Position numbers and translations under genes: made by a program | Notes under the pieces: model-generated | What the model was told of the DNA's origin: nothing | Databases searched by the model: none | Seen by the model: the letters and a program-made list of their open reading frames with translations, nothing else | Assembly (NCBI GenBank): GCA_027485675.1 | Contig: JAIXQP010000025.1 | Span: forward strand, 124,001-188,000 | DNA: 64,000 nucleotides | Direction: 5' to 3' | DNA from: Terriglobales bacterium | GTDB lineage: Bacteria > Acidobacteriota > Terriglobia > Bryobacterales > Bryobacteraceae | In this document: piece by piece, positions 11,090-27,571 of the stretch | How the letters are laid out: the number at the start of each line of letters is the position of its first letter | Position numbering within the stretch: position 1 is the stretch's first letter

Positions 11090-11509
11090 ATGCTCGAAAA
11101 CCTTGACCAAGTCCTGATTGAATCTCCCCTCGGGGAGGTTCAGGCCCTCGTGGAAGGAATCGAAAAACAGCACACCGTCCGGCTCGTCCGGGAGCCGGAG
11201 GTATGCCTGACCATGCTGCGGGCGGAAGATTCCCTCGATGCGCAGGAGTTCTTACTGGGCGAAGCGCTGACGACGTCTTGTGAGGTCAGCGTCGACGGAA
11301 CGGCCGGCTTCGGCATGTGTCTTGGGGAAGAGCCCGTCCGGGCCTACTGCGTTGCCGTGTTCGATGCGCTGCGCGAAAGGCAGGCCATTGACGAAGCCTT
11401 GTTCGATACCTTGGCCCAAATGAATCGCCGAAGGGAAGAGCGCGACCGCCGGGAGTTCGCGCAGACGCTGCGGACGCAGGTCGACTTTAAGTTGCTGGAG
11501 CAGGAATAG
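11090..11509 (+). CDS. phnG: C-P lyase subunit PhnG
   Basis: The smallest subunit of the PhnGHIJ core; with PhnI, H and L it makes 5-phosphoribosyl-phosphonate from ATP and a phosphonate. The 139-aa product has the family core VCLTMLRAEDSLDAQEFLLG, EALTTSCEVSVDG and GLG-type segment FGMCLGEEPVRAYCVAVFDAL, with the expected length. It starts with ATG 14 bp after the phosphoesterase stop and ends 3 bp before phnH, typical of a translationally coupled operon. Confidence 0.92.
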   Translation: MLENLDQVLIESPLGEVQALVEGIEKQHTVRLVREPEVCLTMLRAEDSLDAQEFLLGEALTTSCEVSVDGTAGFGMCLGEEPVRAYCVAVFDALRERQAIDEALFDTLAQMNRRREERDRREFAQTLRTQVDFKLLEQE

Positions 11510-11512
11510 AGG

Positions 11513-12112
11513 ATGACCAGGGAAGCGGAGTTTGCTGAAGCGCAGGACGGACAGGAAGCCTTCCGGGTGATCCTCGATAGCATGGCCCGGCCGGGGCAAC
11601 TCCGGCGGCTGGATACGGCTAAGCTCGCGCCGCCGGCCGGCCTCGAGGGAGCCAGCGCCCTGCTGGGCCTCTGTCTGATCGATTCCGAAGTGAGCTTTCA
11701 CTGTGCCGGCTTTGCGCCGGAGGTGACGGAGTATCTCCGTGTCAATACGAATAGCCGGGTGGCGCCGGCCGCGGAAGCCGACTTCGTCTTTCTTGGGGAT
11801 AGCTCGCGTCTCGATGAGGTGGCCGTGGCCAAGACGGGCGATCCGGAGTATCCGGAACTCTCGGCGACGCTGGTTCTGCAGGTTCGTGCGCTGAGTGAGG
11901 AGCCGATGGCGGATTCCTTGCGCGTGGCTACGTCGGGACCCGGCGTGGATGGGATGCGGAGCTTTTCGGTGGCGGGCTTGGAAACCGCGTTTCTCACGTT
12001 GTTGCGCCGGACGAACGAAGAGTTCCCGCTGGGCCTCGACCTCGTTCTGACTTGCGGGGACGCCGTGCTCAGCCTCCCGCGTTCGCAACGTCTCGAATGG
12101 GAAGGACTCTAG
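11513..12112 (+). CDS. phnH: C-P lyase subunit PhnH
   Basis: A 199-aa structural subunit of the C-P lyase core. Family features are the N-terminal QEAFRVILDSMARPGQLRRL, the mid-protein LCLIDSEVSFHC and the C-terminal EEFPLGLDLVLTCGDAVLSLPR. It lacks the PLP-site lysine pattern of its fold family, as PhnH proteins do. It starts 3 bp after phnG and phnI starts 4 bp after it. Confidence 0.92.
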   Translation: MTREAEFAEAQDGQEAFRVILDSMARPGQLRRLDTAKLAPPAGLEGASALLGLCLIDSEVSFHCAGFAPEVTEYLRVNTNSRVAPAAEADFVFLGDSSRLDEVAVAKTGDPEYPELSATLVLQVRALSEEPMADSLRVATSGPGVDGMRSFSVAGLETAFLTLLRRTNEEFPLGLDLVLTCGDAVLSLPRSQRLEWEGL

Positions 12113-12116
12113 AGCC

Positions 12117-13241
12117 ATGGGATATGTAGCTGTCAAAGGCGGGCAGGAAGCCATTGCCAACGCCGCGGAACTCGTCGAGTACTACCGGCTGCGGGCCGCC
12201 ACCCCGCCCATTGAAATCGAACAGATCCGCACGCAGATGCGGCTGCTGGTGGACAAGATCATGGGCGAGGGATCGCTGTACGCCCCGGATCATGCCGCCC
12301 TGGCGCTGAAACAGAATGAGGGCGACGTGTTTGAGGCCGCCTTCACGATGCGCGCCTACCGGGCTACGCTGAAGCGGGAGTACTATTCGGAAGTCCTGGT
12401 CACCCGCGACATGCTCATCCGGCGGCGCATCTCGGCCGCGTTCCGCGATATTCCGGGCGGCCAGATTCTCGGGCCCACGCGCGACTACACGCACCGCTTG
12501 TTCCAGCCGGAATTGACCACGGAATCGATGCCCTCGATTGAGGAGTTCCTGCAGCGGATCGACGCCCATATCGATCCCGCGAAACTCACGGCCATTCCCA
12601 AGTTCGGCAAGGTGATCGACGTACTGCGGGCCGAAGGGTTGCTGCTCGTGCGGGACGAAGGCGATCGCCGCGTGGTGGACGTCACGCGGGAGGCGATTAA
12701 ATTTCCTGCCCCGCGTTCGGCCGCTTTGCAGATGATGGCCCGGGCGGAAACTGGTGGTCTGATGTGCCTCGGCTACTCCACCATGCGCGGCTTCGCGGCG
12801 GGCGGGCACGGCACCGTGGGCGAGTTACGCGTGGGCGATGTCGCCGTTCAGGTCAAGGATCCGCGTGGGCGCGTCCGCTATCTCGGCCGCATCACGGTAA
12901 CGGAATGCGAGATGGTGAACTCCAGCAAGGGCAGTGGCAAAAAGGGCTCGCTGCCGCTGCTGTCGGTCGGCTACGGGCTCTGCTTCGGGCAAAACGAAAC
13001 GAAGGCGATCTGCATGGGGATGCTCGACAACTCCCTGCGGGAGCCCAACGAAGCCAACCCCGCCAATAGCCAGGAGTTCACGCTCTACCATACCGAGGGG
13101 GTGGAGTCCTACGGGTTCACGAACCACCTGAAGCTGCCGCACTACGTCACCTTCCAGAGCGGCCTCGATAACCTGCGCGAAGCGATGCAAAGGACGCTGG
13201 CCAGCTATGCCGGCCTCACCGTGGAGTCTCCGGCGAAATGA
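12117..13241 (+). CDS. phnI: C-P lyase subunit PhnI
   Basis: A 374-aa subunit with nucleosidase activity in the E. coli enzyme, where it releases adenine from ATP and, with PhnG, H and L, attaches the phosphonate to ribose triphosphate. The sequence is full length and starts MGYVAVKGGQEAIANA. The C-terminal TNHLKLPHYVTFQ keeps both histidines (337 and 342) which in the E. coli structure lie at the PhnI/PhnJ interface, next to the PhnJ cysteines. That half of the interface is therefore conserved, in contrast to the PhnJ half here. The 3' end overlaps phnJ by 4 bp (ATGA). Confidence 0.94.
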   Translation: MGYVAVKGGQEAIANAAELVEYYRLRAATPPIEIEQIRTQMRLLVDKIMGEGSLYAPDHAALALKQNEGDVFEAAFTMRAYRATLKREYYSEVLVTRDMLIRRRISAAFRDIPGGQILGPTRDYTHRLFQPELTTESMPSIEEFLQRIDAHIDPAKLTAIPKFGKVIDVLRAEGLLLVRDEGDRRVVDVTREAIKFPAPRSAALQMMARAETGGLMCLGYSTMRGFAAGGHGTVGELRVGDVAVQVKDPRGRVRYLGRITVTECEMVNSSKGSGKKGSLPLLSVGYGLCFGQNETKAICMGMLDNSLREPNEANPANSQEFTLYHTEGVESYGFTNHLKLPHYVTFQSGLDNLREAMQRTLASYAGLTVESPAK

Positions 13242-14122
13242 TCGAGAACAAGAAGTTCCAATCGGCATACAACTTCGCGTTTCTGGATGAACGCACGAAG
13301 CGCGAGATCCGCCGCAAGATTCTGAAGGCGATTGCCCTGCCCGGATATCAGGTGCCCTACTCTTCGCCGGAAATGCCGATCGCTCGCGGTTGGGGCACCG
13401 GCGGCCTGCACGTCAGCCTCGCAATCATAGGCCGCAAAGATGTATTCAAGGTGATTGACCAAGGCAGCGACGCCAGCGTCAACGCCTGCAGCCTGCGGCA
13501 GTTTATCGAACGGATGACCGGCTGCCGGACCACTGTCGATACCGCGGAGGCCACGCTGATTCAGACCCGGCACCGCATTCCCGAAGAGATCCTGACCGAG
13601 CAGCAGATCCTGGTTTTCCAGGTGCCGCAGCCGGAGATCCTGCGCGGCGTCGAGCGCCTCGAAACCCGCACGCGCTCCATGCACGCCGAAGCCGACTACT
13701 CGAAGCTCTGGGTGTCGCTCTATGAAGCCTATGTGCGCTACGGATCACTGATGCGCGGCGCCGGCTACCCGGTACGCGTGAACGGCCGTTATATGATGTC
13801 CCCCTCCCCCATCCCGCGCTGGGACGTGCCGAACCTCAGCGACGCGCGCTGCCTGTACCTGTTCGGCGCGGGCCGGGAAAAGCGGATCTACGCCATTCCG
13901 CCGCATACCGTCGTGGAGCCGCTCGAGTTCGAAGATGTGCGGTTTCGCGTGGAGGATTGGGGCGCGACCGCCTGCGCCTATAGCAACGCCCGGGACGCCT
14001 TCCTCGACGAGATTTACGAAGACGACTCCTCGCGCAAGTTCGTCGTCAACGACAGCAACTTTCTCGATAAGCTGCGCACCGGTCCGCGGCCGCCGCAGAG
14101 GCTGTTTCGGAATCCCCAATGA
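13238..14122 (+). CDS. phnJ: PhnJ-like C-P lyase subunit lacking three of four key cysteines
   Basis: In E. coli PhnJ is the radical-SAM enzyme that breaks the C-P bond; its C-terminal Cys241/244/266 hold the [4Fe-4S] cluster and Cys272 is the catalytic thiol. This 294-aa protein matches the family along its whole length: YNFAFLDERTKREIRRKILK, the radical-glycine region IALPGYQVP (Gly36), WGTGGLHVSL, TLIQTRHRIPE, YPVRVNGRYM and LFGAGREKRIYAIPP. In the C-terminal segment only Cys246 (E. coli 241) remains. Ser249, Val270 and Leu276 stand where Cys244, 266 and 272 are expected, while the flanking FLDEIYEDD and KFV blocks align. The frame is uninterrupted. The protein may be catalytically dead or use other chemistry. 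It overlaps phnI and phnK by 4 bp each. Confidence 0.93.
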   Translation: MIENKKFQSAYNFAFLDERTKREIRRKILKAIALPGYQVPYSSPEMPIARGWGTGGLHVSLAIIGRKDVFKVIDQGSDASVNACSLRQFIERMTGCRTTVDTAEATLIQTRHRIPEEILTEQQILVFQVPQPEILRGVERLETRTRSMHAEADYSKLWVSLYEAYVRYGSLMRGAGYPVRVNGRYMMSPSPIPRWDVPNLSDARCLYLFGAGREKRIYAIPPHTVVEPLEFEDVRFRVEDWGATACAYSNARDAFLDEIYEDDSSRKFVVNDSNFLDKLRTGPRPPQRLFRNPQ

Positions 14123-14973
14123 ACGACATGGCACTCAACTCCGGCTGGCTGCTGCGGGTGCGCGGCTTGACGAAGATCTACGGACAGCCGGATGGCGATT
14201 CCATCGCCCGCACCGGACCGCAGGCCTCCACCAACATCTGTCCCGTCACGGGGGCCATCGTCGCCTGCGCGGGCATTGACTTTGACCTCTATCCCGGCGA
14301 AGTGCTGGGGGTAGTGGGAGAGAGCGGCTCCGGGAAGAGCACGCTAGTCCAACTGCTCTATTTCGACCAGCCGCCGACGGCCGGCTCCGCGTTTTTCACC
14401 GCCTTGGACAATGGAACGACGGACCTGTTCACGCTGTCGAACCAACGGCGGCGGCATGTGCGGAATCATCTGCTCGGCATGGTGTACCAGAATCCGCGCG
14501 ACGGGCTGAACTTCAACTTTACGGCGGGTGGCAATATCGCCGAGAAGCTGATCATGGCGGGCAGCATGAATGTCGCGTCGATCCGCGAACGTTCAAGCAA
14601 TTTGCTGCGGCAGACCGAAGTCCCGGTGGCGCGCATGGACCAGACGCCGCGAACCTTCTCCGGCGGCATGCAGCAGCGCGTGCAGATTTCGAAGGCGATC
14701 GCCAATCATCCGCCGCTGCTGTTTCTCGATGAGGTCACCAGTGGGCTTGACGTCTCCGTGCAAGCCAAGGTGCTCGACATGATCCGGCAGATTCAGTCCG
14801 AGCTCGGCATCTCGATGATCGTCGTCTCGCATGACCTGGGGGTGATCCGCATGTTGACGGACCGGACCCTGGTCTTGAAAAACGGGCGCATCGTGGAATC
14901 CGGCTTGACCGACCAGATTCTGCAGGACCCGCAGCACGCCTATACCCAACTGCTCGTTAGCTCGCTCCTCTAA
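14119..14973 (+). CDS. phnK: C-P lyase ABC-type ATPase PhnK
   Basis: A 284-aa ABC-family ATPase that in E. coli docks on the PhnGHIJ core rather than on a transporter. Walker A is GESGSGKST, the signature FSGGMQQR, Walker B LLFLDEVTSGLD and the His switch VVSHD. Relative to E. coli PhnK there is an insertion of about 25 residues before the Walker A domain, ending in NICPVTGAIVACAGIDF. I recall related PhnK proteins with a four-Cys-like CPVCG..C knuckle here, with one Cys missing in this copy. It ends 3 bp before phnL. Confidence 0.92.
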   Translation: MNDMALNSGWLLRVRGLTKIYGQPDGDSIARTGPQASTNICPVTGAIVACAGIDFDLYPGEVLGVVGESGSGKSTLVQLLYFDQPPTAGSAFFTALDNGTTDLFTLSNQRRRHVRNHLLGMVYQNPRDGLNFNFTAGGNIAEKLIMAGSMNVASIRERSSNLLRQTEVPVARMDQTPRTFSGGMQQRVQISKAIANHPPLLFLDEVTSGLDVSVQAKVLDMIRQIQSELGISMIVVSHDLGVIRMLTDRTLVLKNGRIVESGLTDQILQDPQHAYTQLLVSSLL

Positions 14974-14976
14974 CGT

Positions 14977-15690
14977 ATGGCCAGACTACTCGAAATCCGC
15001 GGACTCGAAAAGCAGTTTCTGCTGCACATTCTCAACGGCAAACGGATTGCCGCGCTGCACTCGATTGACTGCGAGATCGAAGAGGGAGAGATCCTTGGCC
15101 TAACCGGTAAATCGGGCTCGGGCAAGTCCACCCTGATGAAGTGCCTGTACCGGACCTACCTGCCGACCGCGGGACAAATCTTGTATCATTCCGCCTCATT
15201 GGGGCCGGTCGATCTGGCGCGGGCCGACGAGCACACCATCATCCATCTGCGCCGCACCGAGATCACCTATTGCTCGCAGTTCCTGCAGGTCATCCCCCGC
15301 GTACCGGCGCTCGATGTGGTGGCCGAGCCGATGATTCGCCGCGGCGCCGATCGCGAGGCCGCGCTCGGCCGGGCCCGGGAAGCGTTCGAACGGTTGGGAC
15401 TGCCGACGGAACTCTGGGATGCGTTTCCGGCCACGTTCTCTGGCGGCGAACAGCAGCGGATCAACATTGCGCGCGCCGTGATCTCGGGCCCGCGGTTCCT
15501 GCTGCTCGATGAACCGACGGCTTCGCTGGACGCCAAGACCAAGGATGCGGTGATCGACATGATCCTCGAATTGCGCCAATCCGGTTGCTCCATTGCGTTG
15601 ATCAGTCACGATGCGCACACCATGCAGCGCCTGGCCTCGCGCCGGCTGCATTTGGCCGAAGGCCGCATGGAAGAGGAGGTCCATGCGTAG
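14977..15690 (+). CDS. phnL: C-P lyase ABC-type ATPase PhnL
   Basis: A 237-aa ABC ATPase, required with PhnGHI for the first step of phosphonate activation. Walker A is GKSGSGKST, the signature FSGGEQQRINIARA and Walker B LLLDEPTASLD, followed by ALISHD. The family start LEIRGLEKQFLLHILNGKRI is clear. The final 8 bp overlap the phnD lipoprotein start, so the transporter genes are coupled to the core. Confidence 0.92.
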   Translation: MARLLEIRGLEKQFLLHILNGKRIAALHSIDCEIEEGEILGLTGKSGSGKSTLMKCLYRTYLPTAGQILYHSASLGPVDLARADEHTIIHLRRTEITYCSQFLQVIPRVPALDVVAEPMIRRGADREAALGRAREAFERLGLPTELWDAFPATFSGGEQQRINIARAVISGPRFLLLDEPTASLDAKTKDAVIDMILELRQSGCSIALISHDAHTMQRLASRRLHLAEGRMEEEVHA

Positions 15691-16585
15691 GGTATTGCTG
15701 TTGGCGGCGGTCGCCACACTGGCTGGTTGTTCGAGCCCGGCCATCTCGCCCACCGACCGGCCGAAGGTCTTGCGCTACGCCTTCAACCCTACGGCCGATG
15801 ACATCCAAACCAGCAACAAACGCTACCAGCAATTGGTGGACTTCCTGGGCAAGAAGCTGAACCTGCCCGTCAATATGGTCCAGGCCACGGGCTATAGCAG
15901 CACGATTGAAGCGATGCGCGCCAACAAGATTGATGCCGGGACCATGGGTCCGCTCAGTTACCTGATCGGGGCGCAACGCGCTGGGCTTGAAGCCCTCGTG
16001 CTTCCCGGGCGGACGGATGGTCCGTCCACCTATCAGTCCTGCATCATCGTGCGGTCGGATTCGCCGATCCAGTCCCTCGCGGAGCTCGTTCGCGACAGCA
16101 AGAAGTACACGTTCGCCTTCGTCGACCCGGCGTCGACATCGGGTCACCTGGTGCCGCGCGTGTTTCTTGAAAGCCAGGGGATTGATCCCGAAAAAGACTT
16201 CCGGAAGATGTTCTTCTCGACGAATCATCCCACGACGCTCTACACGGTGACCGGTGGCAAAGTGGACGCCGGCGCCACGATGCCCGCGATGATCCGCACC
16301 ATGGAGGAGAACGGCAAACTGAAGCGTGGCGAGGTCCGGATTCTTTGGGAATCCGAGCCGATCCCGGGGAGCCCGGTGGTGGTGCGGAAAGAGTTGCCGG
16401 CCAGCTTTAAAGAGGAGCTGCGGCAAGCGTTCCTCTCGCTGCACGTGGAAGCGCCGGAACTCGCGGCAGCCCTGCAAGTGACTTCGAAGTATCCGGATTT
16501 CCGCTACCATCCCGCCAACGACCGGATGTACGACGGGCTGCGGGCCATCGCCAAGGACCTCAAAAACGTGAAGATCCTGGAGTAG
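15683..16585 (+). CDS. phnD: phosphonate ABC transporter, substrate-binding lipoprotein (system 1)
   Basis: A 300-aa binding protein of the PhnD family. I choose the ATG at 15683 because GAGGAGGT precedes it and it gives a lipoprotein signal MRRVLLLAAVATLAGC with the lipidated Cys at 14. The mature part has the PhnD features LRYAFNPTADD, the VDFLGKKLNLPV segment, FAFVDPASTSGHLVPRVFL and the hinge region WESEPIPGSPVVV. The first gene of a phnDCEE set, reading on from the C-P lyase core. Its substrate cannot be read from sequence; it differs clearly from the second PhnD (22924-23805), which suggests different preferences. Confidence 0.9.
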   Translation: MRRVLLLAAVATLAGCSSPAISPTDRPKVLRYAFNPTADDIQTSNKRYQQLVDFLGKKLNLPVNMVQATGYSSTIEAMRANKIDAGTMGPLSYLIGAQRAGLEALVLPGRTDGPSTYQSCIIVRSDSPIQSLAELVRDSKKYTFAFVDPASTSGHLVPRVFLESQGIDPEKDFRKMFFSTNHPTTLYTVTGGKVDAGATMPAMIRTMEENGKLKRGEVRILWESEPIPGSPVVVRKELPASFKEELRQAFLSLHVEAPELAAALQVTSKYPDFRYHPANDRMYDGLRAIAKDLKNVKILE

Positions 16586-16587
16586 CC

Positions 16588-17346
16588 GTGCTGGTAGTCG
16601 ATGCGCTGACCAAGACCGTTCCCGGGGGCCGCCGTGTTCTGGACGGCGTCTCGTTCTCCGTCGGGGCGGGAGAGTTCGTGGGCATCCTGGGTTCGAGCGG
16701 CGCCGGGAAGTCGCTGACGCTGCGGGCCATCTCCGGCCTCACGGAACTGGATTCGGGAGAGGTTCGCTTTGCCTGCGAGGACGGAACCATGTGCTGCGTC
16801 ACGCGGGCGCGGGGCAAAGCCTTGCGCGCGGCGCGGCGGCAGATGGGCGTGATCTTTCAAGGGCTGCATCTGGTGAAGCGCATGACGGTCATCGAAAACG
16901 TCATGATGGGCCGCCTGGGCTTTATTCATCCCTTGCGCAGTTGGCTGTACGGGTTTACTGACGCCGAGGCCCGCGAAGCGTTGGAGGCCCTGGACCAGGT
17001 CTCGATGAAACCGTTGGCCGGACGCATCACCGGTTCTTTGAGCGGGGGCGAGATGCAACGCGTGGCGATTGCCCGCGCCATCTTTCAACGGCCGCGGCTG
17101 TATTTGGCCGATGAACCGATCGCCGCGCTCGACCCGCGCAACGCCGAGGCGATTCTCAACCTGCTGCAGCCCCTGTCCCGGCACAACCCGGTGGTAAGCA
17201 CCTTTCACCAACCTGAGCTCACCCGCCGCTTCTGCACCCGCGTGGTGGGGATCCGCGAGGGAAGGGTAGTCTACGACGGCAGCCCGGAGCTGTCGCGCTC
17301 GGAGCTGGCCGGCATCTATGGCATTCGGGAGGCGCAGGCCGTTTGA
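16588..17346 (+). CDS. phnC: phosphonate ABC transporter ATPase (system 1)
   Basis: A 252-aa ATPase that powers the PhnE permeases. Walker A is GSSGAGKS, the signature SLSGGEMQRVAIARA and Walker B LYLADEPIAALD. The typical PhnC insertion MTVIENVMMGRLG followed by a hydrophobic stretch is present. It begins with GTG at 16588, 2 bp after phnD, and its TGA overlaps the next ATG (TGATG). Confidence 0.92.
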   Translation: MLVVDALTKTVPGGRRVLDGVSFSVGAGEFVGILGSSGAGKSLTLRAISGLTELDSGEVRFACEDGTMCCVTRARGKALRAARRQMGVIFQGLHLVKRMTVIENVMMGRLGFIHPLRSWLYGFTDAEAREALEALDQVSMKPLAGRITGSLSGGEMQRVAIARAIFQRPRLYLADEPIAALDPRNAEAILNLLQPLSRHNPVVSTFHQPELTRRFCTRVVGIREGRVVYDGSPELSRSELAGIYGIREAQAV

Positions 17347-18134
17347 TGGTTCCCTACTCCGCGCGCCGGCAGCTAGTTCGCAGAGCGGTTGGTTTCGGCC
17401 TGTGGCTGGGCCTATTCCTGGCGGCTGCGGCGCTTTGCGATTTGAGTCCGGAGATCCTCAAGCAGGGACTGGGCAAAGCCCCCCAGTTTGCCCGCGAGTT
17501 CTTTCCGCCGCTCTGGGCGGCGGCGGACGAAATGGTGGAGCCGTTGCTGTCCACGCTGGCGCTGGCGTCGGCCGCCTCGCTTTTGGGCATGCTCCTAGCG
17601 TTTCCGGTCGGGCTGGCCGCCGCCGCGAACATCGTTCCGGTGTGGCTGCGTCTGCCGGTGCGGATCCTGCTGGGGGCTGAGCGGGCTTTGCCGGAAATCC
17701 TGCAGCTCTTGTTCTTCGTCGTGGCCTTCGGCTTAGGTCCTTTTTCCGGCATGTGTGCGTTGGCGTTTTCGAGCATCGGCATGCTCGGCAAACTCGTCGG
17801 AGATGCCATCGAGGATGCCGATGACAAGGTGCTCGAATCGCTGAAAGCCACGGGCGCCTCATTCTGGCAAGTGATTCGCTATGGTCTGCTGCCGCAGGTG
17901 CTGCCGTCGCTTGCCGCCAATGCGCTCTTCCGGTTTGACGTCAACGTGCGCAGCTCGGTCGTGCTGGGGGCGATCGGCGCCGGCGGCATCGGCGCGGAGA
18001 TTGCCCGTTCGATGGGAATGCTGCAGTACAACCGCGCGACCATGGCCGTTCTTGGATCCCTGATCCTGATCTATGCCGCCGAGACCGTCTCCGGCCAGCT
18101 GCGGCGGCGGCTGTTGGAGGATGGCCGGTCATGA
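17346..18134 (+). CDS. phnE: phosphonate ABC transporter permease PhnE (system 1, first)
   Basis: A 262-aa inner-membrane permease with about six membrane segments. The PhnE EAA-type loop KATGASFWQVIRYGLLPQVLPS is present, followed by RFDVNVRSSVVLGAIGAGGI, the family hallmark. A TTG at 17343 just before the ATG could serve as alternative start. The 3' end overlaps the second permease by 4 bp, so the two probably form a heterodimer. Confidence 0.92.
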   Translation: MVPYSARRQLVRRAVGFGLWLGLFLAAAALCDLSPEILKQGLGKAPQFAREFFPPLWAAADEMVEPLLSTLALASAASLLGMLLAFPVGLAAAANIVPVWLRLPVRILLGAERALPEILQLLFFVVAFGLGPFSGMCALAFSSIGMLGKLVGDAIEDADDKVLESLKATGASFWQVIRYGLLPQVLPSLAANALFRFDVNVRSSVVLGAIGAGGIGAEIARSMGMLQYNRATMAVLGSLILIYAAETVSGQLRRRLLEDGRS

Positions 18135-18907
18135 TGTGGCCTTCGCAAAATGCCCGCCGGATGTGGGCCACTGTCGCTACGTTTGCCGCCTTTCTGGGCG
18201 GCTTCCTCGCGTACTTAAACGTCGAACCGGTCGCCGTGCTGTTTCAGGGTCAGCATCTGCAGAACCTGTTTCGGGATGTCTTCCCTCCGCGGCTCGCCGT
18301 GCTTTGGGAACGGTCCGGGCTGTGGTGGTCCGTCGTTGAAACCCTGGCGATGGCCTTTGCCGGCACCACCCTGGGTCTCGCCTTCGCGCTGCCCGCGGGG
18401 CTGGCCGGCGCCGCCAACACCACGCCCCACGGCGGCCTGCGGGCCGCGGTGCGCTTCCAGCTCAGCCTGGAGCGCGCCCTTTCGAGCTTCTTCATTTTGA
18501 TGGTGCTGCTGATCGCCTTCGGACTCGGCCCCTTCGCCGCCACCGTCACTCTGGCGCTCGGTACGCTGGGCGGGTTCGGCAAGCTGTTTGCCGAATCGCT
18601 CGAGCGCGTTGAAGCCGCTCCGGCGGAGGCGTTAGCGGCGCTGGGAGCCTCCCGGTCGCAGCAGATCTGCTTCGCCGTGTTGCCGCAGGCCGCCCCGGCG
18701 TTGATCACTGGTTCCCTCTACGCTTTCGACATCAATCTCCGCGCCGCCATCGCCCTCGGCATTTTCGGCGCCGGAGGGTTGGGCGCCGAACTGTTACTCG
18801 CCTACAACACCCTGCGCTACCACGATGTCCTTGCGCTCGCCCTGGTCTCCCTGGTCCTGGTGACGGCCGTCGAGCGGGTTTCTGATTTCCTCCGCCAACG
18901 CATATGA
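18131..18907 (+). CDS. phnE: phosphonate ABC transporter permease PhnE (system 1, second)
   Basis: A 258-aa permease paralogous to its upstream neighbour. The loop LGASRSQQICFAVLPQAAPAL and the hallmark FDINLRAAIALGIFGAGGLG are clear. It lies in the normal place after phnE in phnDCEE operons, and its stop overlaps phnM by 4 bp. Confidence 0.92.
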   Translation: MMWPSQNARRMWATVATFAAFLGGFLAYLNVEPVAVLFQGQHLQNLFRDVFPPRLAVLWERSGLWWSVVETLAMAFAGTTLGLAFALPAGLAGAANTTPHGGLRAAVRFQLSLERALSSFFILMVLLIAFGLGPFAATVTLALGTLGGFGKLFAESLERVEAAPAEALAALGASRSQQICFAVLPQAAPALITGSLYAFDINLRAAIALGIFGAGGLGAELLLAYNTLRYHDVLALALVSLVLVTAVERVSDFLRQRI

Positions 18908-20049
18908 ACCGACAAATTCTCTCCCACGCCACCCTCATTCTGCCCGGCGAAACGGTCGAAGGCAGCGTCGTCATCGAAGACGGCAAGATCGCCGAGGTGC
19001 TGCCCGGCCAAACGTTTGAGGCCGGCATGAACCTCCACGGCCGTTACCTCGCGCCCGGCGTCATCGATATCCATACGGATTACCTGGAACGCGAACTCAA
19101 CCCCCGGCCGGACACGCACTTTCCGCTGGAGCTCGCCTTCCACATGATGGACGTCCGCGCCATCAGTTGCGGCATCACCACCGTGCTGGGCGCCGTGCGG
19201 GTATCGGAGGAGAACGATGGGCCGTTGGGATCCTGGCGCGGCAACGGCCTTCTGCTGGCCGAGGCTTATCAAAACCTGCGTCAAAGCGCCCGCGCCCGCC
19301 ACTATCTGCACGTGCGCTGGGATCCGAACTTCGAGCCGTGCGATGAGTCGCTGGCCCGCCTGCTGGAGCTCCGGTCCTCCATCGGCAACCTGGTCTACAA
19401 CGATTCGACGCCCGGCGAACGGCAGTACAAGAACACCTACTCGGATCAAATCCGCCGCTATGCGTTGACCAAGCAGATCTCCGTTGTCGAGGCCGAGGCC
19501 GAGTTCGCCGAAAAGCGGGCCAAGGCCCTGCAGACCAATAACCGGGCAAAGGTAAACGCCGCCTTCGGTCGCCACTTGCCGCTGGGCAGTCATGACGACA
19601 CCACGGTGGAACATGTCATCGAAGCCTTCGAGCACGGGGCCACGTTGGCTGAAATGCCCGTGACGATCGAGGCTGCGCGCAAGGCCCGCGAACTGGGCAT
19701 GCAGATTTGCATGGGGGCGCCGAACTACTACCGGGGCGGATCCCACTGCGGCAATCTCTCCGCGCACCACGCGCTCGCCGAAGGGCTCGTCGATGTTCTC
19801 TGCAGCGATTACCACTTCCCCTGCCTGCTGGGCAGCGCCGTGAAGATGATGCACGCGGGCGCCGCGCCGCACACGGCGATGAACCTGATTACGCGGAATG
19901 CCGCGCGGCATCTGCAACTGGATGCGGAGCTGGGCAGCATCGAGACCGGCAAAGCCGCCGATCTCATCGCCTTCCGCGCCGAACCCAGCTTTGGCGATGT
20001 GACCCATGCCTGGGTGAATGGCCAACTGAAGTTCGCCGGGGTTGCGTGA
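18904..20049 (+). CDS. phnM: PhnM-family amidohydrolase, paralogue 1
   Basis: PhnM removes pyrophosphate from ribose-1-phosphonate-5-triphosphate. This 381-aa amidohydrolase has the metal motif as DIHTDYLERE (usual HTDNLE), the central RYLHVR-like HYLHVRWD, the HDD segment GSHDDTTVEHV and CSDYHFPCLL. It belongs to a subgroup unlike E. coli PhnM, with NDSTPGERQYKN in the middle. It starts 4 bp inside phnE and its TGA overlaps the GTG of the EEP gene. This is one of three PhnM-like genes in the island. Confidence 0.88.
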   Translation: MNRQILSHATLILPGETVEGSVVIEDGKIAEVLPGQTFEAGMNLHGRYLAPGVIDIHTDYLERELNPRPDTHFPLELAFHMMDVRAISCGITTVLGAVRVSEENDGPLGSWRGNGLLLAEAYQNLRQSARARHYLHVRWDPNFEPCDESLARLLELRSSIGNLVYNDSTPGERQYKNTYSDQIRRYALTKQISVVEAEAEFAEKRAKALQTNNRAKVNAAFGRHLPLGSHDDTTVEHVIEAFEHGATLAEMPVTIEAARKARELGMQICMGAPNYYRGGSHCGNLSAHHALAEGLVDVLCSDYHFPCLLGSAVKMMHAGAAPHTAMNLITRNAARHLQLDAELGSIETGKAADLIAFRAEPSFGDVTHAWVNGQLKFAGVA

Positions 20050-20783
20050 AGCTGCTGACTTTCAACATTCGCTATCCGGAGCCGGCCGACGGCCCCAACG
20101 CCTGGGAGCACCGTTGCGAGGCCGTCGCGGCCACGATCAGCGAAACCGGCGCCGCCGTCGCCGGGCTGCAGGAGCCGGTTCTCGATCAGCTTCGCTATCT
20201 CGATGACGCCCTGCCGGAGTACCGGCGCTTCGGCGTGAGCCGCTACGGCGACGACTTCGAGAAGTTCACGGCCATCCTATACCAGCCGGAACAGGTCAAT
20301 CTGCTGGACCACGGCGCCTTCTGGTTCTCCGAGACGCCCGAAGTTCCCGCGTCGATGTCGTGGCGGATCCACAAGCCCTACGCCGTGAATTGGGGGTACT
20401 TCGAACATCGGGCGAGCGGCCGCACCTTTCACGTCTACAACACCCACTTCCCCTACAAGCCGGAGCAGGCCGAGGCTCGCCTCCGATCGGCCCGCTTGCT
20501 GATGGAACGAGCCAGCGGGGAGCGGGTGTTTCTGCTGGGCGATTTCAACTCACCGGCCGGCGGCGAAGTCCACCAGATCTTCACCGCAACGTTTCACGAT
20601 AGCTGGACCGGCGGGCCGGAGGGAACCTTCCATGGATTCACGGGAATCCCCACGCGCCACCGGCTCGACTGGATCCTATGCCGGGGCCCGATCCACGTCG
20701 AATCGTGCGTGGCGATCACCGCTCCGGTGGCTGGCCGCTATCCGTCCGATCACTTTCCGGTATTGGGTTCGTTCCGTATTTGA
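20046..20783 (+). CDS. endonuclease/exonuclease/phosphatase-fold hydrolase
   Basis: A 245-aa enzyme of the EEP superfamily. Visible motifs are LLTFNIRYP, GLQEP, VYNTHFPY, FLLGDFNSP, RLDWIL and YPSDHFPVL, covering the metal and catalytic residues. Members cleave phosphodiester or phosphomonoester bonds. Its place as last gene of the C-P lyase operon suggests work on a ribose-phosphate intermediate, perhaps in place of PhnP, which is missing; this is inference. The GTG start at 20046 overlaps the phnM stop (GTGA). The 3' end overlaps the convergent hexapeptide transferase by 68 bp. Confidence 0.85.
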   Translation: MKLLTFNIRYPEPADGPNAWEHRCEAVAATISETGAAVAGLQEPVLDQLRYLDDALPEYRRFGVSRYGDDFEKFTAILYQPEQVNLLDHGAFWFSETPEVPASMSWRIHKPYAVNWGYFEHRASGRTFHVYNTHFPYKPEQAEARLRSARLLMERASGERVFLLGDFNSPAGGEVHQIFTATFHDSWTGGPEGTFHGFTGIPTRHRLDWILCRGPIHVESCVAITAPVAGRYPSDHFPVLGSFRI

Positions 20784-21402
20784 GCGCGTCGTACTTCTCG
20801 ACGAACGCCTCGGCCGAGAGCTTCCGGAAGTCCGCCATGGCAGCGCGCAGCTGCTCCCTCGGCCAGTTCCACCACGCAATCCGGAGCAAGCCTTCGCGAA
20901 CCTTCTCCTCGAATCGCCAATACAGCAGCCGGGCCGGAAAGCCGGAGACCACGGCAAACGGCGGCACGTCGCGAGACACCACCGCGCTTGCCCCCACCGC
21001 GGCGCCTGTGCCAATCGATACCCCCGGCAACACCACGGCTCCGTGCCCGATCCAGACGTCGTCGCCCAGCCGGACCTGTTTGGCGCGGCGCCAGGCGAAG
21101 AACTCCGCGTCATCCTCTTCGCCCAGGTCGTAGCTGACGGTCCGGTAGCTGAAGTGGTGCAACGCCGCCTTAGCCAGAGGGTGATTCCCGGGGTTAAGCC
21201 GGGTGTGGGCGGCTATCGAACAGAAGCGGCCGATCTGGCTATAGATAATGCTTGAGTCGTTGACGACGTAGGAGTAGTCGCCGAGCGAGGACTCGGCAAT
21301 CGTCGTGCGGGCTCCCACGGCTGTCCACGCCCCCAGCGTGGACTCGCGCACCATCGCCGTCGGATCGATCCAAGGCTCAATTCCCAACTTCCTTTTCGAC
21401 AT
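20716..21402 (-). CDS. hexapeptide-repeat acyltransferase of phosphonate operons
   Basis: A 228-aa left-handed beta-helix protein with hexapeptide repeats (VRLGDDVWIGHGAVVLPGVS; IGTGAAVGASAVVSRDVPPF), close to the transferase-hexapeptide family found in phn operons (TIGR03308-like). Such proteins may acetylate aminophosphonates, as PhnO does, but the substrate is not known. It is the last gene of the minus-strand operon; its ATG overlaps the phnE stop (TGATG). The C-terminal tail after KYDALKYG lies in the 68-bp antiparallel overlap with the EEP gene and may be non-conserved. Confidence 0.82.
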   Translation of the reverse strand: MSKRKLGIEPWIDPTAMVRESTLGAWTAVGARTTIAESSLGDYSYVVNDSSIIYSQIGRFCSIAAHTRLNPGNHPLAKAALHHFSYRTVSYDLGEEDDAEFFAWRRAKQVRLGDDVWIGHGAVVLPGVSIGTGAAVGASAVVSRDVPPFAVVSGFPARLLYWRFEEKVREGLLRIAWWNWPREQLRAAMADFRKLSAEAFVEKYDALKYGTNPIPESDRTDSGQPPER

Positions 21403-22157
21403 CAGCTTCCCCTCTCCAGTTCAGAACGCGCCCAGCGGGACAACCGGTCCACGGCGGTGACGGAGGCGAGGATCAGGAGGATGGTCATCGAAACCTGCTG
21501 CCACTCGTTCACCCGCAACTGATCCGTCAAGTGCATGCCAATCCCGCCCGCCCCGACGACGCCCAGGATCGTCGCGTGGCGCACGTTCGATTCCAGGTAG
21601 TACAGCGCCTGGGCCGCGAAGGCCGGCAGCACCTGCGGCAGGATGCCGAAACGCACCACCTCCCAACGGTTGCCGCCGGCGGCGAGAACGCCCTCCACCG
21701 GACCGGGCGAGCTGTGATCCACCGCCTCGCTGAACAGCTTGGCCAACGTGCTAAGGTCCACCATCATCAGCGCCATGACCCCTGCGAAAGGCCCCAGGCC
21801 CACGGCATTCACAAACAGTAGCGCCCACAGCAAAGCGTCGATCGAACGCGATAAATCCATCCCCCGGCGCAGCGGCCAACGCCAAAGCCAGTTCGGCAGC
21901 ACCTTCGCTGAGCCGAGCAGGCCCAGCGGAAACGCGAGCACCGCGGCCATCACCGTCGCCGCCAGAGCGATTCCCAAGGTCTCGAGGAGACTGAAGACCA
22001 GCGTCAGGAACTGGCCGCCCGCATCCGGCGGCACCAACTCCGCGCTGATCCGCGCCAGCTTTCCCAAGCCAGGCCAGATGCGGCCAGGCCACAGGTCCAC
22101 CGCCCAAAACGCATAGGCGCTGAATGCCGCGAACGCCAGCCACAGAAGGCGGTTCAC
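21402..22157 (-). CDS. phnE: phosphonate ABC transporter permease PhnE (system 2, second)
   Basis: A 251-aa permease with about six membrane segments. The loop LAAGGNRWEVVRFGILPQVLPA and the hallmark YLESNVRHATILGVVGAGGIG are characteristic. It starts with GTG at 22157, overlapping the upstream permease stop (GTGA). Less like the system 1 permeases than those are to each other, judging by eye. Confidence 0.9.
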   Translation of the reverse strand: MNRLLWLAFAAFSAYAFWAVDLWPGRIWPGLGKLARISAELVPPDAGGQFLTLVFSLLETLGIALAATVMAAVLAFPLGLLGSAKVLPNWLWRWPLRRGMDLSRSIDALLWALLFVNAVGLGPFAGVMALMMVDLSTLAKLFSEAVDHSSPGPVEGVLAAGGNRWEVVRFGILPQVLPAFAAQALYYLESNVRHATILGVVGAGGIGMHLTDQLRVNEWQQVSMTILLILASVTAVDRLSRWARSELERGS

Positions 22158-22927
22158 GCGGCCAGCCTCCGGCGCGCCACTTCACTCAACTGATCGAGAA
22201 TCGCCACGGCGGCCACCAGCAGGACGATGATGGCGCTGATGTCCTGATAGACGAACTGGCGCGTGGCGACGTAGAGCTCCTGGCCGATGCCGCCGACCCC
22301 GACGAAGCCGATCACCGCCGAAGAACGCACGTTGAGCTCGAAGCGGAACAGCGTGTAGCTCAGGAAGCCCGGCAGGATCTGGGGCGCCGCTCCGAAGCGC
22401 ATCGTCTCGAGCCAGTTGGCGCCGCTGGCGCGCATGCCTTCGAGCGGCCGCGGCTCCACGTGTTCGAGGAGTTCGAGCGACAGCTTGCCCAGCGCCCCCG
22501 CGGCATGCAGGCCAAGCGCCAGCACGCCCGCCAAGGGCCCCAGGCCAAACGCGATCACAAACAACAGGGCGTAGACCAGTTCGGGAACGGTCCGCGCCAG
22601 TTCGAGTAATCGCCGCGTGGCGGCTCCCAGCGCGGGATGGGGCGTCAGGTTGCGTGCCGCCAGGAAACTGAGCAACAGTCCGGCTACTGCGCCGAGTAAC
22701 GTACCCGCATACGCCATCAGGATGGTTTCCCACAGCATGGGCAGCCACCGCTTCCAACCCCACATCCACGCCGCGAGATCACTGCCGAGTGTCGCCAGGC
22801 GCACCTCCGGCAGCGTCCCCCAGATGTAGCCGGTCATGGCGGGCAGCCCATTCCAGAGCCTCACCGGCGATACTTCGCTGACATAGAAGGAGGCGCCAAT
22901 GGCCGCCAAAATCAACAGACGCCTCAT
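22154..22927 (-). CDS. phnE: phosphonate ABC transporter permease PhnE (system 2, first)
   Basis: A 257-aa permease. Visible are the loop RASGANWLETMRFGAAPQIL and the hallmark RFELNVRSSAVIGFVGVGGIG. The ATG at 22927 overlaps the stop of the binding-protein gene (ATGA). Together with the following permease it would form the membrane part of the second importer. Confidence 0.9.
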   Translation of the reverse strand: MRRLLILAAIGASFYVSEVSPVRLWNGLPAMTGYIWGTLPEVRLATLGSDLAAWMWGWKRWLPMLWETILMAYAGTLLGAVAGLLLSFLAARNLTPHPALGAATRRLLELARTVPELVYALLFVIAFGLGPLAGVLALGLHAAGALGKLSLELLEHVEPRPLEGMRASGANWLETMRFGAAPQILPGFLSYTLFRFELNVRSSAVIGFVGVGGIGQELYVATRQFVYQDISAIIVLLVAAVAILDQLSEVARRRLAA

Positions 22928-23805
22928 GGCTGCTTCCGCTGATCCAGATTGCTGCGCACCATGCGAATCACCGGCTCGTAGGCGCTGTGTTCCACCGGGC
23001 TATAGCCGCTCTCCCGCTGCGCGCTGAGGAACTGAAACGCCTCGGGCTCCTGCTTGGGGAACTCCATCACAGCGGCCGCGAAGATTCTGTTGAACTCCTC
23101 CGGCGAGTCTAACCGTACCGTCCACGGGCTCGAAGGAATGCGCGGGGATTTCCAGATGATCCGCGTGGAGCCCTTGGGGATGATCCCCTTGCCCTCCATG
23201 CGCAACGGGTTCGTGCGGGTCTCGCTGTAGAACCAGGTCGCCGCCGCGTCATAGGTGCCGTTCAGCATGGCCACCAGGCTCGTCTCGTGACTGCCCCCGA
23301 ACCCGGTCTTCGAGAAGAACGTCCGCGCTTCAAATCCTTCTTCTTTCAGAAAGAAGCTCGGCGCCAGATAGCCGGAGGTCGAATTCGGGTCGGCAAAGGC
23401 GATGCTCTTTCCCCGCAGGTCTTCGATGCGTCGGGCAGAACTCTTGGCCGGGACGACAACGATCGAGTGGTAGCCGTTTTCTCCATCTTCATTGAGAGTG
23501 GCCAGCAGCGGCTTCACCTGCCCCTGCGTCACCAGCCACGCCCGCGCGTAGGCAGCGGCGCCGAAGTAGGCCACCTCCACCTGCCGGGACTTGAGCGCTT
23601 CGATGACGGCGGCGTAGTCCGTGGCGGTGCGCAACACAACGGGCCGGGCCAGCCGCTTTTCGAGATACACGCGCAACGGCTCATAACGCTTCACCACATC
23701 GGCGTCGCTTTCGATCGCGGAGATGCCAATCCGCAGGACGTTGCTGGCCGGCTTGCCGCAAGCCAGACAAAAGATCAGGACGATCAACAACGGTAATAGC
23801 TTCAT
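22924..23805 (-). CDS. phnD: phosphonate ABC transporter, substrate-binding lipoprotein (system 2)
   Basis: A 293-aa PhnD-family binding protein. I choose the ATG at 23805 because it overlaps the phnC stop (ATGA) and gives the lipoprotein signal MKLLPLLIVLIFCLACGKP with Cys at 16. The open frame extends further upstream but that part is phnC in another frame. Family motifs are LRIGISAIESDADVV, IEALKSRQVEVAYFG, SIAFADPNSTSGYLAPSFFL and the ligand-site-like ETRTNPLRM. Its divergence from the first PhnD suggests another phosphonate or phosphite-like ligand. Confidence 0.9.
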   Translation of the reverse strand: MKLLPLLIVLIFCLACGKPASNVLRIGISAIESDADVVKRYEPLRVYLEKRLARPVVLRTATDYAAVIEALKSRQVEVAYFGAAAYARAWLVTQGQVKPLLATLNEDGENGYHSIVVVPAKSSARRIEDLRGKSIAFADPNSTSGYLAPSFFLKEEGFEARTFFSKTGFGGSHETSLVAMLNGTYDAAATWFYSETRTNPLRMEGKGIIPKGSTRIIWKSPRIPSSPWTVRLDSPEEFNRIFAAAVMEFPKQEPEAFQFLSAQRESGYSPVEHSAYEPVIRMVRSNLDQRKQP

Positions 23806-24551
23806 CGTGCACCCGCGTAAATGGACTCTTCCCGGCCCGCTGTCAGTTCCTGTGGGGAGCCGTCGAAGACCAGGCGGCCCTGGGACAACCCAAGGACTCG
23901 ATCGCAGTAGGAGCGCGCGACCTCGAGGTTGTGAAGATTGCAAAGCACGGTGACGCCGCCGGTTCGCTGCAAATGCCGCAACTGGTCCATCACGATCCGT
24001 GTGTTCTCGGGATCGAGTGAGGAAACGGGCTCGTCCGCCAGCAGCACCTCCACCCCCTGCATGAGCACCTTGGCGATGGCCACCCGTTGCTGCTGTCCGC
24101 CCGACAGGGTCTTGACGGTTTGCCCGGCCTGCGGCCCCAGATCGAGCTGCTGCAATAACTCGAGCGCCTTGGCGCGGTCCGCGGCGGGAAACACCCGAAA
24201 CAATAACGGCAAGGTGCGGCGGCGGCGAACCGACCCAAGCAACACATTCGTCAGCGCGTCCATGCGATCCACTAACTGAAACTGCTGGAAGATCATGCCG
24301 CAGCGGGCCCGCCAATCGAGCAAGGCGCCACCCTGCAAGGCACGCACATCCAGGCCGTCCCAGCCGATGGCGCCCGCATCGGCCTCCACCAGCCGGTTGA
24401 TGCAGCGAAGCAGCGTGGACTTCCCCGCGCCGGAGCGGCCAACGATCCCAACCATCTGCCCGGCGGGCACTTCGAAGCTGACGCCGTCGAGAACCGTCTT
24501 GCCTCCATACGCCTTCCGGAGACCGTCGATGGTAAGCGCGCGGTGGGCCAT
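23802..24551 (-). CDS. phnC: phosphonate ABC transporter ATPase (system 2)
   Basis: A 249-aa ATPase. Walker A is GRSGAGKSTLLRCINRL, the Q-loop FQQFQLVDRMDALTNVLLG, the signature TLSGGQQQRVAIAKVL and Walker B VLLADEPVSSLD. It is a more canonical PhnC than the system 1 copy. The ATG at 24551 lies 6 bp after the phnM stop. Confidence 0.92.
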   Translation of the reverse strand: MAHRALTIDGLRKAYGGKTVLDGVSFEVPAGQMVGIVGRSGAGKSTLLRCINRLVEADAGAIGWDGLDVRALQGGALLDWRARCGMIFQQFQLVDRMDALTNVLLGSVRRRRTLPLLFRVFPAADRAKALELLQQLDLGPQAGQTVKTLSGGQQQRVAIAKVLMQGVEVLLADEPVSSLDPENTRIVMDQLRHLQRTGGVTVLCNLHNLEVARSYCDRVLGLSQGRLVFDGSPQELTAGREESIYAGAR

Positions 24552-24557
24552 GAGGGA

Positions 24558-25703
24558 CTATCCGTTCCAGATGCCGGGATCGGCCAAATGCGCCAGCCGG
24601 CCTTCGACCACGGCCATGGACACCCGCGGCAGAGACTCCTGCGAATCGTCGACCACGATCAGATCCGCGCGCAGGCCCGCCTCGATCCTGCCGCGGTCCT
24701 CGAGCCCCGCCGCGCGAGCCGGCGCGCTACTGACGAGCGCCCAAGCCGCGCCAAACGGCAGCACCCCGTCCCGGACCAGCCGGAACGCGGCGTGGAGCAG
24801 GGCGGGGTAGTAGTAGTCCGAAGTCAGAACTGTGCCCAACCCCCGGCGCAGCGCCTCGGTCGCGCCCAGCCGCCGGATATGGCTCTTGCCCCGCACGATA
24901 TTGGGACCGCCCAGAATCACCTCCTGGCCGGCCTCCTGCGCCGCTTGTGCGGTCGCTTCGTCCAGGGGGAACTCGCAAATCGAGCTGCCGATCCGGCGGA
25001 ACCGTTCGCTCATGGCCGGAGATTCGTCGTCGTGTGAGGCCATCGGAATTCCGCCCTCCCGCGAAGCCTGCGCCACGGCTTCCACCGCCGGCCAGACTTC
25101 CGCCTGCCGCGCGCGGGTCGCCTCAAGCAACGCGCGGAAGGCTTCTATCGTCAGCCCGGAGCGCTCGGCGTACTGCGCCCCCTTGGCGCCCTTGTCGAGC
25201 TTCGCGGCGATCATGTCGAGATGATCGTTGAAGCCCACCAGGTGCACCTTGCCGCCGCGAATCCAGTCCAGGATCTCGGCCGTCTCATTCAGCGCATACA
25301 GTTCGTAACGCAGGTGCAGCCGCGTGTCGCACTGCAGCACGGGCCGGATCCGGTCGAGCGCCGTCACCATCAGCCGGCCATGCTCGATGCCGCGCAGCCC
25401 GGGCTCCCAGGAGACCGTCAAACCGTGATACGCCGTCGTGATGCCGTTCGCCAACAGCTGCCGGTCACTATCCACCAAGGCCAGATCGAGCGGAAAGAAA
25501 ACTCCGCTCCGCGGCATCCATTGGCGTTCAAAAGCGTCCCCGTGCAGATCCACCATACCGGGCAGGAGCAAGCGGTCTTGGAGGTCCAAGGCGCCGGGCG
25601 CATTGGCGCCCTGGAGTTCCAGAATCCGCCCACCCTCGATGGCGACGCACCCCGGCCGCAACTCCCCATCCGGCCACAAAACCCGGTTACTTTTTAACAG
25701 CAC
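24558..25703 (-). CDS. phnM: PhnM-family amidohydrolase, paralogue 2
   Basis: A 381-aa amidohydrolase heading the minus-strand operon. The metal motif is altered to VDLHGDAFERQW in place of HTDNLE, a variant I recall from some proteobacterial phn operons. Other signatures are LHLRYELYALN, the VGFNDH segment, ASHDDE and LTSDYYYPALLHAAFRL. It is probably a triphosphate diphosphohydrolase as PhnM is, but with a substrate that may differ. The frame starts with GTG at 25703, preceded by AAGG very close to it. Confidence 0.87.
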   Translation of the reverse strand: MLLKSNRVLWPDGELRPGCVAIEGGRILELQGANAPGALDLQDRLLLPGMVDLHGDAFERQWMPRSGVFFPLDLALVDSDRQLLANGITTAYHGLTVSWEPGLRGIEHGRLMVTALDRIRPVLQCDTRLHLRYELYALNETAEILDWIRGGKVHLVGFNDHLDMIAAKLDKGAKGAQYAERSGLTIEAFRALLEATRARQAEVWPAVEAVAQASREGGIPMASHDDESPAMSERFRRIGSSICEFPLDEATAQAAQEAGQEVILGGPNIVRGKSHIRRLGATEALRRGLGTVLTSDYYYPALLHAAFRLVRDGVLPFGAAWALVSSAPARAAGLEDRGRIEAGLRADLIVVDDSQESLPRVSMAVVEGRLAHLADPGIWNG

Positions 25704-26931: not shown

Positions 26932-27571
26932 GCCCAGGTATGCGATCTACTTTGCACCACAGCCGCAGACGCCCTTGGCCCGGCTCGCCGTCGCGTGGTT
27001 CAGCGACCCGGAAGCGCAAAGCGTAACCGAATCGCCGCGGCACTACGGCTTCCATGCCACGCTGAAGCCGCCGATGGCGCTGCGGCCGGGCTGCCGCCTA
27101 GAGGATCTGCGGGCGGAGCTGCAGGAGTTCGCCGGGTGCGAGCCGCGTCTCACCATCCCCAAGCTCCAGGTCTCCCTGCTCGGCAACTTCATCGCGTTAA
27201 CGCTCGCGCAACCACTTTCCGCCCTCGACGCCCTGGCCGCGCTTTGCGTGGAACACTTTGAGCCGTTCCGTCAGCCAGAGAGCAGCGAAGAAGCGGCAAA
27301 GCGCCGCCGCGCTTCGCTGACCACGCGCCAACTGGAGTTGCTCGACCGCTGGGGTTACCCCTACGTCCTGGACGAGTGGCGCTTTCATATGACGCTCACC
27401 TCCTCCCTCGCCGATCCCGCGCTGCGCACAACGCTCCTGAACCGGTTGGAGTCCCACTTCGCGCCTGCTCTCGAGCAGCCGGTGATGATCGAAGACCTGT
27501 GCCTGTTTATGCAGCCGGATCGCAGTTCGCCTTTTGCCCTAACGGAGCGCTTCGCATGCTGGGTGAAGTAA
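26924..27571 (+). CDS. DUF1045 phosphonate-metabolism 2H phosphodiesterase
   Basis: A 215-aa protein of the DUF1045 family, found in phosphonate operons. It has the two HxT motifs of the 2H cyclic phosphodiesterase fold: HYGFHATLKPP near residue 47 and WRFHMTLTSS near 152. In such operons it is proposed to open ribosyl 1,2-cyclic phosphate, the role filled by PhnP in E. coli, which is absent here. The start is TTG at 26924, overlapping the phnM stop by 8 bp; the end overlaps the next ATG by 16 bp. Confidence 0.85.
   Translation: MPEPRYAIYFAPQPQTPLARLAVAWFSDPEAQSVTESPRHYGFHATLKPPMALRPGCRLEDLRAELQEFAGCEPRLTIPKLQVSLLGNFIALTLAQPLSALDALAALCVEHFEPFRQPESSEEAAKRRRASLTTRQLELLDRWGYPYVLDEWRFHMTLTSSLADPALRTTLLNRLESHFAPALEQPVMIEDLCLFMQPDRSSPFALTERFACWVK

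Follow-up and report, generated by a model that had tools for sequence, protein, structure and literature searches.

A PhnJ protein encoded within a complete C-P lyase operon of an acidobacterium lacks three of the four C-terminal cysteines known from E. coli PhnJ, and on balance it appears from sequence to be a member of a working C-P lyase branch that does without a [4Fe-4S] cluster held by the known ligands. The gene lies in a stretch of 64,000 nt (positions 124,001 to 188,000 of contig JAIXQP010000025.1, assembly GCA_027485675.1, Terriglobales bacterium), which as a whole is called the window below. The same three cysteines are missing from relatives in three phyla and from PhnJ proteins of Thermus and rhizobial-type plasmids, and the residues of the PhnI/PhnJ zinc pocket are retained.

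C-P lyase is one of the major routes by which phosphonates are used and methane is formed from methylphosphonate. The accepted scheme for PhnJ, comprising the cluster, SAM, Gly32 and Cys272, reportedly goes back to Kamat 2013. As set out in passages of PMC9947105 and PMC11978286, the four cysteines of E. coli PhnJ bind the cluster, SAM gives rise to a radical on Gly32, and a radical is formed on Cys272. Passages of PMC9947105 also place the cluster site 30 Å from Gly32, describe PRcP as modelled at the zinc site and surrounded by Arg107, Gln124 and His108, and call the C-P lyase mechanism unresolved. The four cysteines are treated as a feature of PhnJ in passages of PMC9947105, PMC11978286 and PMC12413358, and no description of a PhnJ without them was found in an open-licence library, outside which most subscription papers lie.

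A complete C-P lyase operon with a cysteine-poor PhnJ

The operon of the window comprises phnGHIJKL and phnM (Table 1) and is thus complete, as the original prediction stated. phnJ is a single unbroken ORF that overlaps by 4 bp with the end of phnI (at 13241) and with the start of phnK (at 14119). Its product matches PF06007 with 419.7 bits (curated cut-off 25), aligns over residues 9-276 with residues 5-272 of E. coli PhnJ (E 1.7e-94, phmmer against PDB chains), and gave no match to NCBIfam at E 0.01. Alignment to E. coli PhnJ revealed that Cys246, the equivalent of Cys241, is the only C-terminal cysteine left, with Ser249, Val270 and Leu276 replacing Cys244, Cys266 and Cys272. One of the four cluster cysteines of the E. 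coli-type lyase is therefore present (among four cysteines in the whole protein), and the known cluster cannot be held by its known ligands, exactly as had been claimed.

Other key residues are kept. The radical-glycine region and the RHRIPE block are present as predicted, Gly36 corresponding to E. coli Gly32, and Arg111, His112 and Gln128 correspond to Arg107, His108 and Gln124. PhnI keeps the equivalents of the interface histidines His219, His328 and His333 (the latter two being His337 and His342 of the window protein), and the operon thus has the radical glycine, the PhnI zinc-site histidines and the PhnJ pocket residues of an E. coli-type lyase. The AlphaFold model of the window PhnJ has a pLDDT of 88.1, with 84-95 in the blocks from residue 231 onward, and its six best Foldseek matches were all E. 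coli PhnJ (TM 0.88-0.94, rmsd 1.7-1.9).

Table 1. Phosphonate-related features of the window (positions in the 64,000-nt stretch).
Feature	Coordinates	Strand	Remarks
phnG	11090..11509	+	PF06754
phnH	11513..12112	+	PF05845
phnI	12117..13241	+	PF05861; zinc-site histidines kept
phnJ, Cys-poor variant	13238..14122	+	294 aa; PF06007
phnK	14119..14973	+	best NCBIfam match TIGR02323, 238.9 bits, below cut-off 302.85
phnL	14977..15690	+	TIGR02324 over cut-off
phnD-like phosphonate-binding lipoprotein	15683..16585	+	start inferred; ORF 15611-16585
phnC-like ATPase	16588..17346	+	
phnE-like permease 1	17343..18134	+	named from place and likeness
phnE-like permease 2	18131..18907	+	named from place and likeness
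phnM-like amidohydrolase	18904..20049	+	NF011984 over cut-off
endonuclease/exonuclease/phosphatase-family gene	20046..20783	+	PF03372; inferred GTG start overlapping phnM
hexapeptide acyltransferase of phn operons	20716..21402	-	TIGR03308 over cut-off
second phosphonate-type transporter (phnE, phnE, phnD, phnC-like)	21402..24551	-	PF12974 for binding protein
second phnM-like gene	24558..25703	-	NF011987 over cut-off
third phnM-like gene	25801..26931	+	NF011984 and TIGR02318 over cut-off
DUF1045 phn-operon protein	26924..27571	+	PF06299 over cut-off; TIGR03223 below its cut-off
inositol monophosphatase-family ORF	27376..28323	+	PF00459; true start probably further in

Positions 20716-28323 make up a second phosphonate block (the acyltransferase, a transporter, two phnM, DUF1045 and the inositol-monophosphatase-family ORF), which brings the phnM-like genes of the window to three. 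The product of the endonuclease/exonuclease/phosphatase-family gene is possibly a phosphodiesterase, and the DUF1045 protein we take, by its 2H kinship, to be a candidate cyclic phosphodiesterase. Directly upstream of phnG, 8607-11075 encodes a large protein with matches to PF04185 phosphoesterase and to beta-propellers; a look-alike occupies the same place in locus L008 (9105-11651).

Distribution of the cysteine-poor branch

A scan of a genome contig collection with four variant C-terminal tails as queries (patterns VEPLEFED and AF[LM]DEI[YF][END]) yielded 74 loci, a sample that is no census because the patterns steer towards one half of the PhnJ family. Thirty-three loci (L018-L050) lack Cys266 and Cys272, and 41 (L051-L091) have all four cysteines. 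Relatives and the collection scan together gave a variant set of 34 loci, the window included, after removal of the duplicates L018, L027 and L028. It was compared with 44 loci (L010, L011, E. coli K-12 and L051-L091). Some of these are near copies of one another (four from Clostridioides difficile, three of Roseiflexaceae type, and the pair L063 and L065), and the gene of L072 is split.

Cys241 is present in all variant (34/34) and all comparison loci (44/44). Cys266 and Cys272 occur in 0/34 variant loci each and Cys244 in 1/34, whereas each is present in 44/44 comparison loci, a pattern that is not due to chance, particularly as the same three cysteines are gone again in 5 of the 19 plasmid PhnJ examined. 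The substitutes in the clade are Thr or Ser for Cys244, Ile, Val or Met for Cys266, and Leu or Met for Cys272. Two of the four cysteines are found in L009 (genome G625), the sole variant locus with Cys244.

The variant is not confined to the window's lineage: by record titles the 34 loci extend over Acidobacteriota, Verrucomicrobiota (Opitutaceae and kin) and Bacteroidota (Mucilaginibacter, Puia, Muricauda, Aquimarina and others). Many carriers are MAGs; named isolates include Mucilaginibacter oryzae DSM 19975 and Puia dinghuensis CGMCC 1.15448. Sequencing error is an unlikely source of the cysteine loss, since these isolates and the finished plasmid pVV8 of T. thermophilus HB8 are among the carriers. 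One locus, L035, is titled Beijerinckiaceae, an assignment that we rejected: its PhnJ, its neighboring genes (groups u9 and u12, common with Bacteroidota loci) and its order draw (which has G685 in common with the Bacteroidota draw) all point to Bacteroidota, and the record is probably a mislabelled MAG.

The window's order draw contained PhnJ in 6 of 257 genomes, as the variant in G000, G614, G162 and G625 and with four cysteines in G114 and G637; G614 is of the same genus as the window, and its PhnJ is 89% identical. The window's phylum draw had PhnJ in 1/396 genomes, the window's own, and the Bacteroidota phylum draw in 1/345, the draw centre alone. All three PhnJ of the Mucilaginibacter oryzae family draw (3/201 genomes) are Cys-less, as are two of three in the order draw of an Opitutaceae MAG (3/177). 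The third of these (G1216, locus L103) is interrupted by an in-frame TAG, reflecting either gene loss in the clade or an assembly error. A tail query of a viral contig collection returned 78 pattern matches and no confirmed virus-borne PhnJ.

The operon around the variant gene is widely kept. Of the 34 variant loci, several of which are truncated at a contig end, all contain phnI, 33 phnK, 32 phnL, 30 phnH, and 29 each phnG and phnM, mostly with the phn genes in a single run together with a phosphonate transporter. Of the 22 Bacteroidota-type loci L029-L050, 9 have phnN alongside (TIGR02322 over cut-off in L042); E. coli-seeded profiles found no phnP in the window or the variant loci, and no phnN in the window. 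A 2H-like gene following phnM (group u2; of three members scanned, two gave Pfam matches, both weak) occurs in 17 variant loci and no comparison locus, and an endonuclease/phosphatase-family gene (group u6) in 8 variant loci and again no comparison locus. Two operons, L007 (G162) and L009, are rearranged, with phnI and phnM upstream of phnG and phnH before phnJ. In 14 Bacteroidota-type variant loci among L029-L050 the gene immediately preceding phnG belongs to group u0, whose sole scanned member (L034, 6090-6800) is a response regulator.

Copy number and selection

The original prediction had considered a lyase in the first stages of decay, with the genuine PhnJ encoded at another site, which we could dismiss on the single PhnJ per searched carrier genome together with the signs of purifying selection. 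The window genome (6.59 Mb, 97.4% complete) has one PF06007 match and hence no second phnJ. One PhnJ each was also found in G614 (75% complete), G162 (98%) and G625 (82%), and 29 of 29 further carrier genomes, for which completeness is not given, contain a single PhnJ.

That PhnJ is under selection, as had been supposed, was borne out by Nei-Gojobori estimates for 12 variant pairs. Whole-gene dN/dS was 0.006-0.079 in the nine unsaturated pairs (three saturated pairs being printed as zero) and 0.048-0.140 for the C-terminal domain, where again nine pairs were unsaturated and three saturated, values that are rough because synonymous differences are high (pS 0.44-0.82). Four comparison pairs gave 0.025-0.095 for the whole gene and 0.037-0.250 for the C-terminal domain, and YN00 gave 0.058 for window versus L008 PhnJ. 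The tail motif NDSNFLDK is well conserved in the variants. Variant PhnJ is under purifying selection.

Conserved pocket and clade-specific residues

Gly36, Arg111, His112, Gln128 and Cys246 of PhnJ are invariant in 60/60 alignment rows (33 variant and 27 comparison). The zinc-site histidines of PhnI, in E. coli numbering, are likewise kept among the variant loci (His328 34/34, His333 34/34, and His219 32/34 with two gaps).

The clade has also gained residues. His58 of PhnJ, near the 5'-phosphate loop (E. coli Gln54), is found in 34/34 variant versus 0/44 comparison loci, Cys84 in 34/34 versus 4/44, and Cys96 in 28/34 versus 1/44; Cys77 of PhnG (column 72 of the trimmed alignment) is found in 29/29 versus 1/41. 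PhnL Cys99 (32/32) and PhnI Cys299 (29/34) are further common cysteines of the variant loci. Cysteine occupies 5 of the 59 clade signature positions versus a background of 1.3%, which we take as a hint only, since related sequences are not independent. His58 and Cys84 were considered as a shared replacement ligand and rejected: neither occurs in Thermus HB8, Sinorhizobium B11 or Rhizobium 11515TR, so that no shared replacement residue was seen.

A second cysteine site in PhnK

Of 43 comparison PhnK, 39 bear four cysteines (GCPxC...CPxC) in an N-terminal insertion, 30 of them recognized by pattern and nine by eye; L053 has three of the cysteines, and the PhnK of E. coli, L010 and L011 have no insertion. 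In L051-L091 the insertion, mostly with four cysteines, has zinc-ribbon-like spacing, without counterpart in E. coli PhnK. The window PhnK keeps the insertion with three of the four cysteines replaced, one being left in NICPVTGAIVAC. Across the clade the insertion is present in 33/33 variant PhnK, with cysteines 2 and 4 lost in 33/33, cysteine 3 kept in 33/33 and cysteine 1 lost in 31/33 (the exceptions being L007 and L020). The insertion is absent from the Cys-less operons of Thermus and rhizobial type and from several plasmid operons with a four-Cys PhnJ. The PhnJ and PhnK sites are not tied together in general, because operons of the E. coli type have the PhnJ cysteines but no PhnK insertion.

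Cys-less PhnJ of Thermus and rhizobial-type plasmids

Of 215 plasmid records with PhnJ, 19 were examined; the protein has all four cysteines in 14 and is Cys-less in five: Thermus thermophilus SNM1-1, T. thermophilus HB8 pVV8, and the rhizobial-type Rhizobium sp. 11515TR, Sinorhizobium sp. B11 and Nitratireductor sp. OM-1. A passage of PMC5529391, which cites Ohtani 2012, describes pVV8 as rich in phosphonate genes. Like the window, these five lack the same three cysteines and keep Cys241 and the operon; unlike it, their PhnK has no insertion, and the PhnJ of Thermus HB8, Sinorhizobium B11 and Rhizobium 11515TR lack the His58 and Cys84 of the window clade. Both Thermus proteins and those of Sinorhizobium B11 and Rhizobium 11515TR have one cysteine in all (Nitratireductor OM-1 has two), which rules out a three-cysteine cluster site within PhnJ itself in the single-Cys proteins. 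On another plasmid, from Nostoc, a fosfomycin transferase and a phosphonate HD-domain oxygenase are annotated in the record between phnI and phnJ (L115, 1186-3405).

In a 97-row PhnJ tree built with the cysteine columns omitted, 40 rows lack the cysteine set, all 40 keeping Cys241. The Cys-less rows fall in three places and call for three changes, at least two of them forced by starred branches. A 69-row tree, from which 28 rows (long branches and near copies) had been dropped beforehand, did not reject a single origin (p-AU 0.55). As the larger tree asks for three changes and the smaller one is compatible with a single origin, the cysteine set was lost between one and three times.

A proposed cluster-free lyase and its alternatives

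Since the zinc pocket, Gly32 and Cys241 are all retained, we place the chemistry of the variant in the PhnI/PhnJ pocket. A phosphonate would be ribosylated by PhnGHIL and trimmed by PhnM, and the C-P bond would then be cleaved around the zinc ion without a PhnJ cluster, with Cys241 and Gly32 as candidates for a retained radical or acid/base role and with PhnK/PhnL opening the complex. The four-Cys site of E. coli might in that case be a dispensable metal site, structural or accessory, or another activation route may replace it. The nearby PhnN, 2H-like, DUF1045 and phosphatase-family genes count in favor of such a cluster-free lyase; the published E. coli cluster and Cys272 radical, the stop in L103, the lack of a replacement residue common to all Cys-less PhnJ examined for it, and the failure to find phnP count against it. 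We know of no chemistry that would release methane without a Cys272-type radical. A broader generalization, that C-P lyase as such needs neither a PhnJ-bound [4Fe-4S] cluster nor Cys272, that cleavage occurs in the zinc pocket, and that the four-Cys site, along with the insertion site of many PhnK, is an accessory metal site given up by several aerobic lineages, is conceivable and offered tentatively. Mucilaginibacter and Thermus are aerobes, and loss of the cluster would suit life in oxygen.

Invariance of Gly32 would also suit a lyase that has stayed with radical chemistry, by way of an Fe-S cluster or thiyl radical that relies on other ligands (Cys84, Cys96 or neighboring subunits) or on a separate Gly32-activating enzyme. 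The new cysteines of the clade in PhnJ, PhnG, PhnL and PhnI, and the excess of cysteine among its signature positions, speak for this possibility, but the four single-Cys PhnJ outside the clade are without these gains and none of ten accessory proteins scanned with Pfam is a radical SAM enzyme, leaving it unlikely though of some weight. Loss of the catalytic Cys272, and the docking of PhnK on PhnJ described in a passage of PMC9947105, would be explained if PhnJ were a scaffold only, with PhnGHIKL ribosylating phosphonates or running another ATP-driven reaction and the C-P bond broken elsewhere or never; this we consider unlikely, as the PhnJ pocket residues and Gly32 are invariant and phnM (29/34 loci) and phnN (9/22) lead one to expect the usual product line.

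Cleavage without any radical, by zinc-site chemistry on a narrower class of substrates, could draw on the kept zinc ligands (34/34 for His328 and His333) and on the new invariant histidine at E. coli position 54, but the PhnJ of Thermus HB8, Sinorhizobium B11 and Rhizobium 11515TR lack that histidine, and the reading is quite improbable. Hardly credible is a relaxed or decaying gene or an assembly error, to which the cysteine loss itself and the in-frame stop of one relative (L103) might point: the variant spans three phyla plus Thermus and rhizobial-type plasmids, occurs in isolate genomes, keeps NDSNFLDK, and has a whole-gene dN/dS below 0.08 in the nine unsaturated pairs, which refutes decay or assembly error for the clade, just as the single PhnJ per genome and dN/dS rule out a decaying phnJ beside a second intact copy.

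Surveys that require the four PhnJ cysteines, or that place primers there, could miss the branch (compare passages of PMC11978286 and PMC12413358), and because naturally Cys-less PhnJ occur in culturable bacteria, the textbook mechanism becomes directly testable.

Comparison with known PhnJ

E. coli PhnJ (PDB 4xb6 and 7z15-7z19) resembles the window protein in PF06007 membership, fold and operon position, with 53-54% identity in the Foldseek alignment, and shares Gly32, Arg107, His108 and Gln124. The window PhnJ differs from it in lacking Cys244, Cys266 and Cys272, and its clade adds the invariant His58 and Cys84. The four-Cys group L051-L091 (Desulfobacterota, Clostridioides, ANME-type archaea and others) has in common with the window the VEPLEFED block, itself used as a scan pattern, the PhnK insertion and the same large tree group. 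Unlike the window, this group has all four PhnJ cysteines, mostly carries its transporter genes upstream, and shows the four-Cys PhnK insertion in 39 of the 40 loci with PhnK in view.
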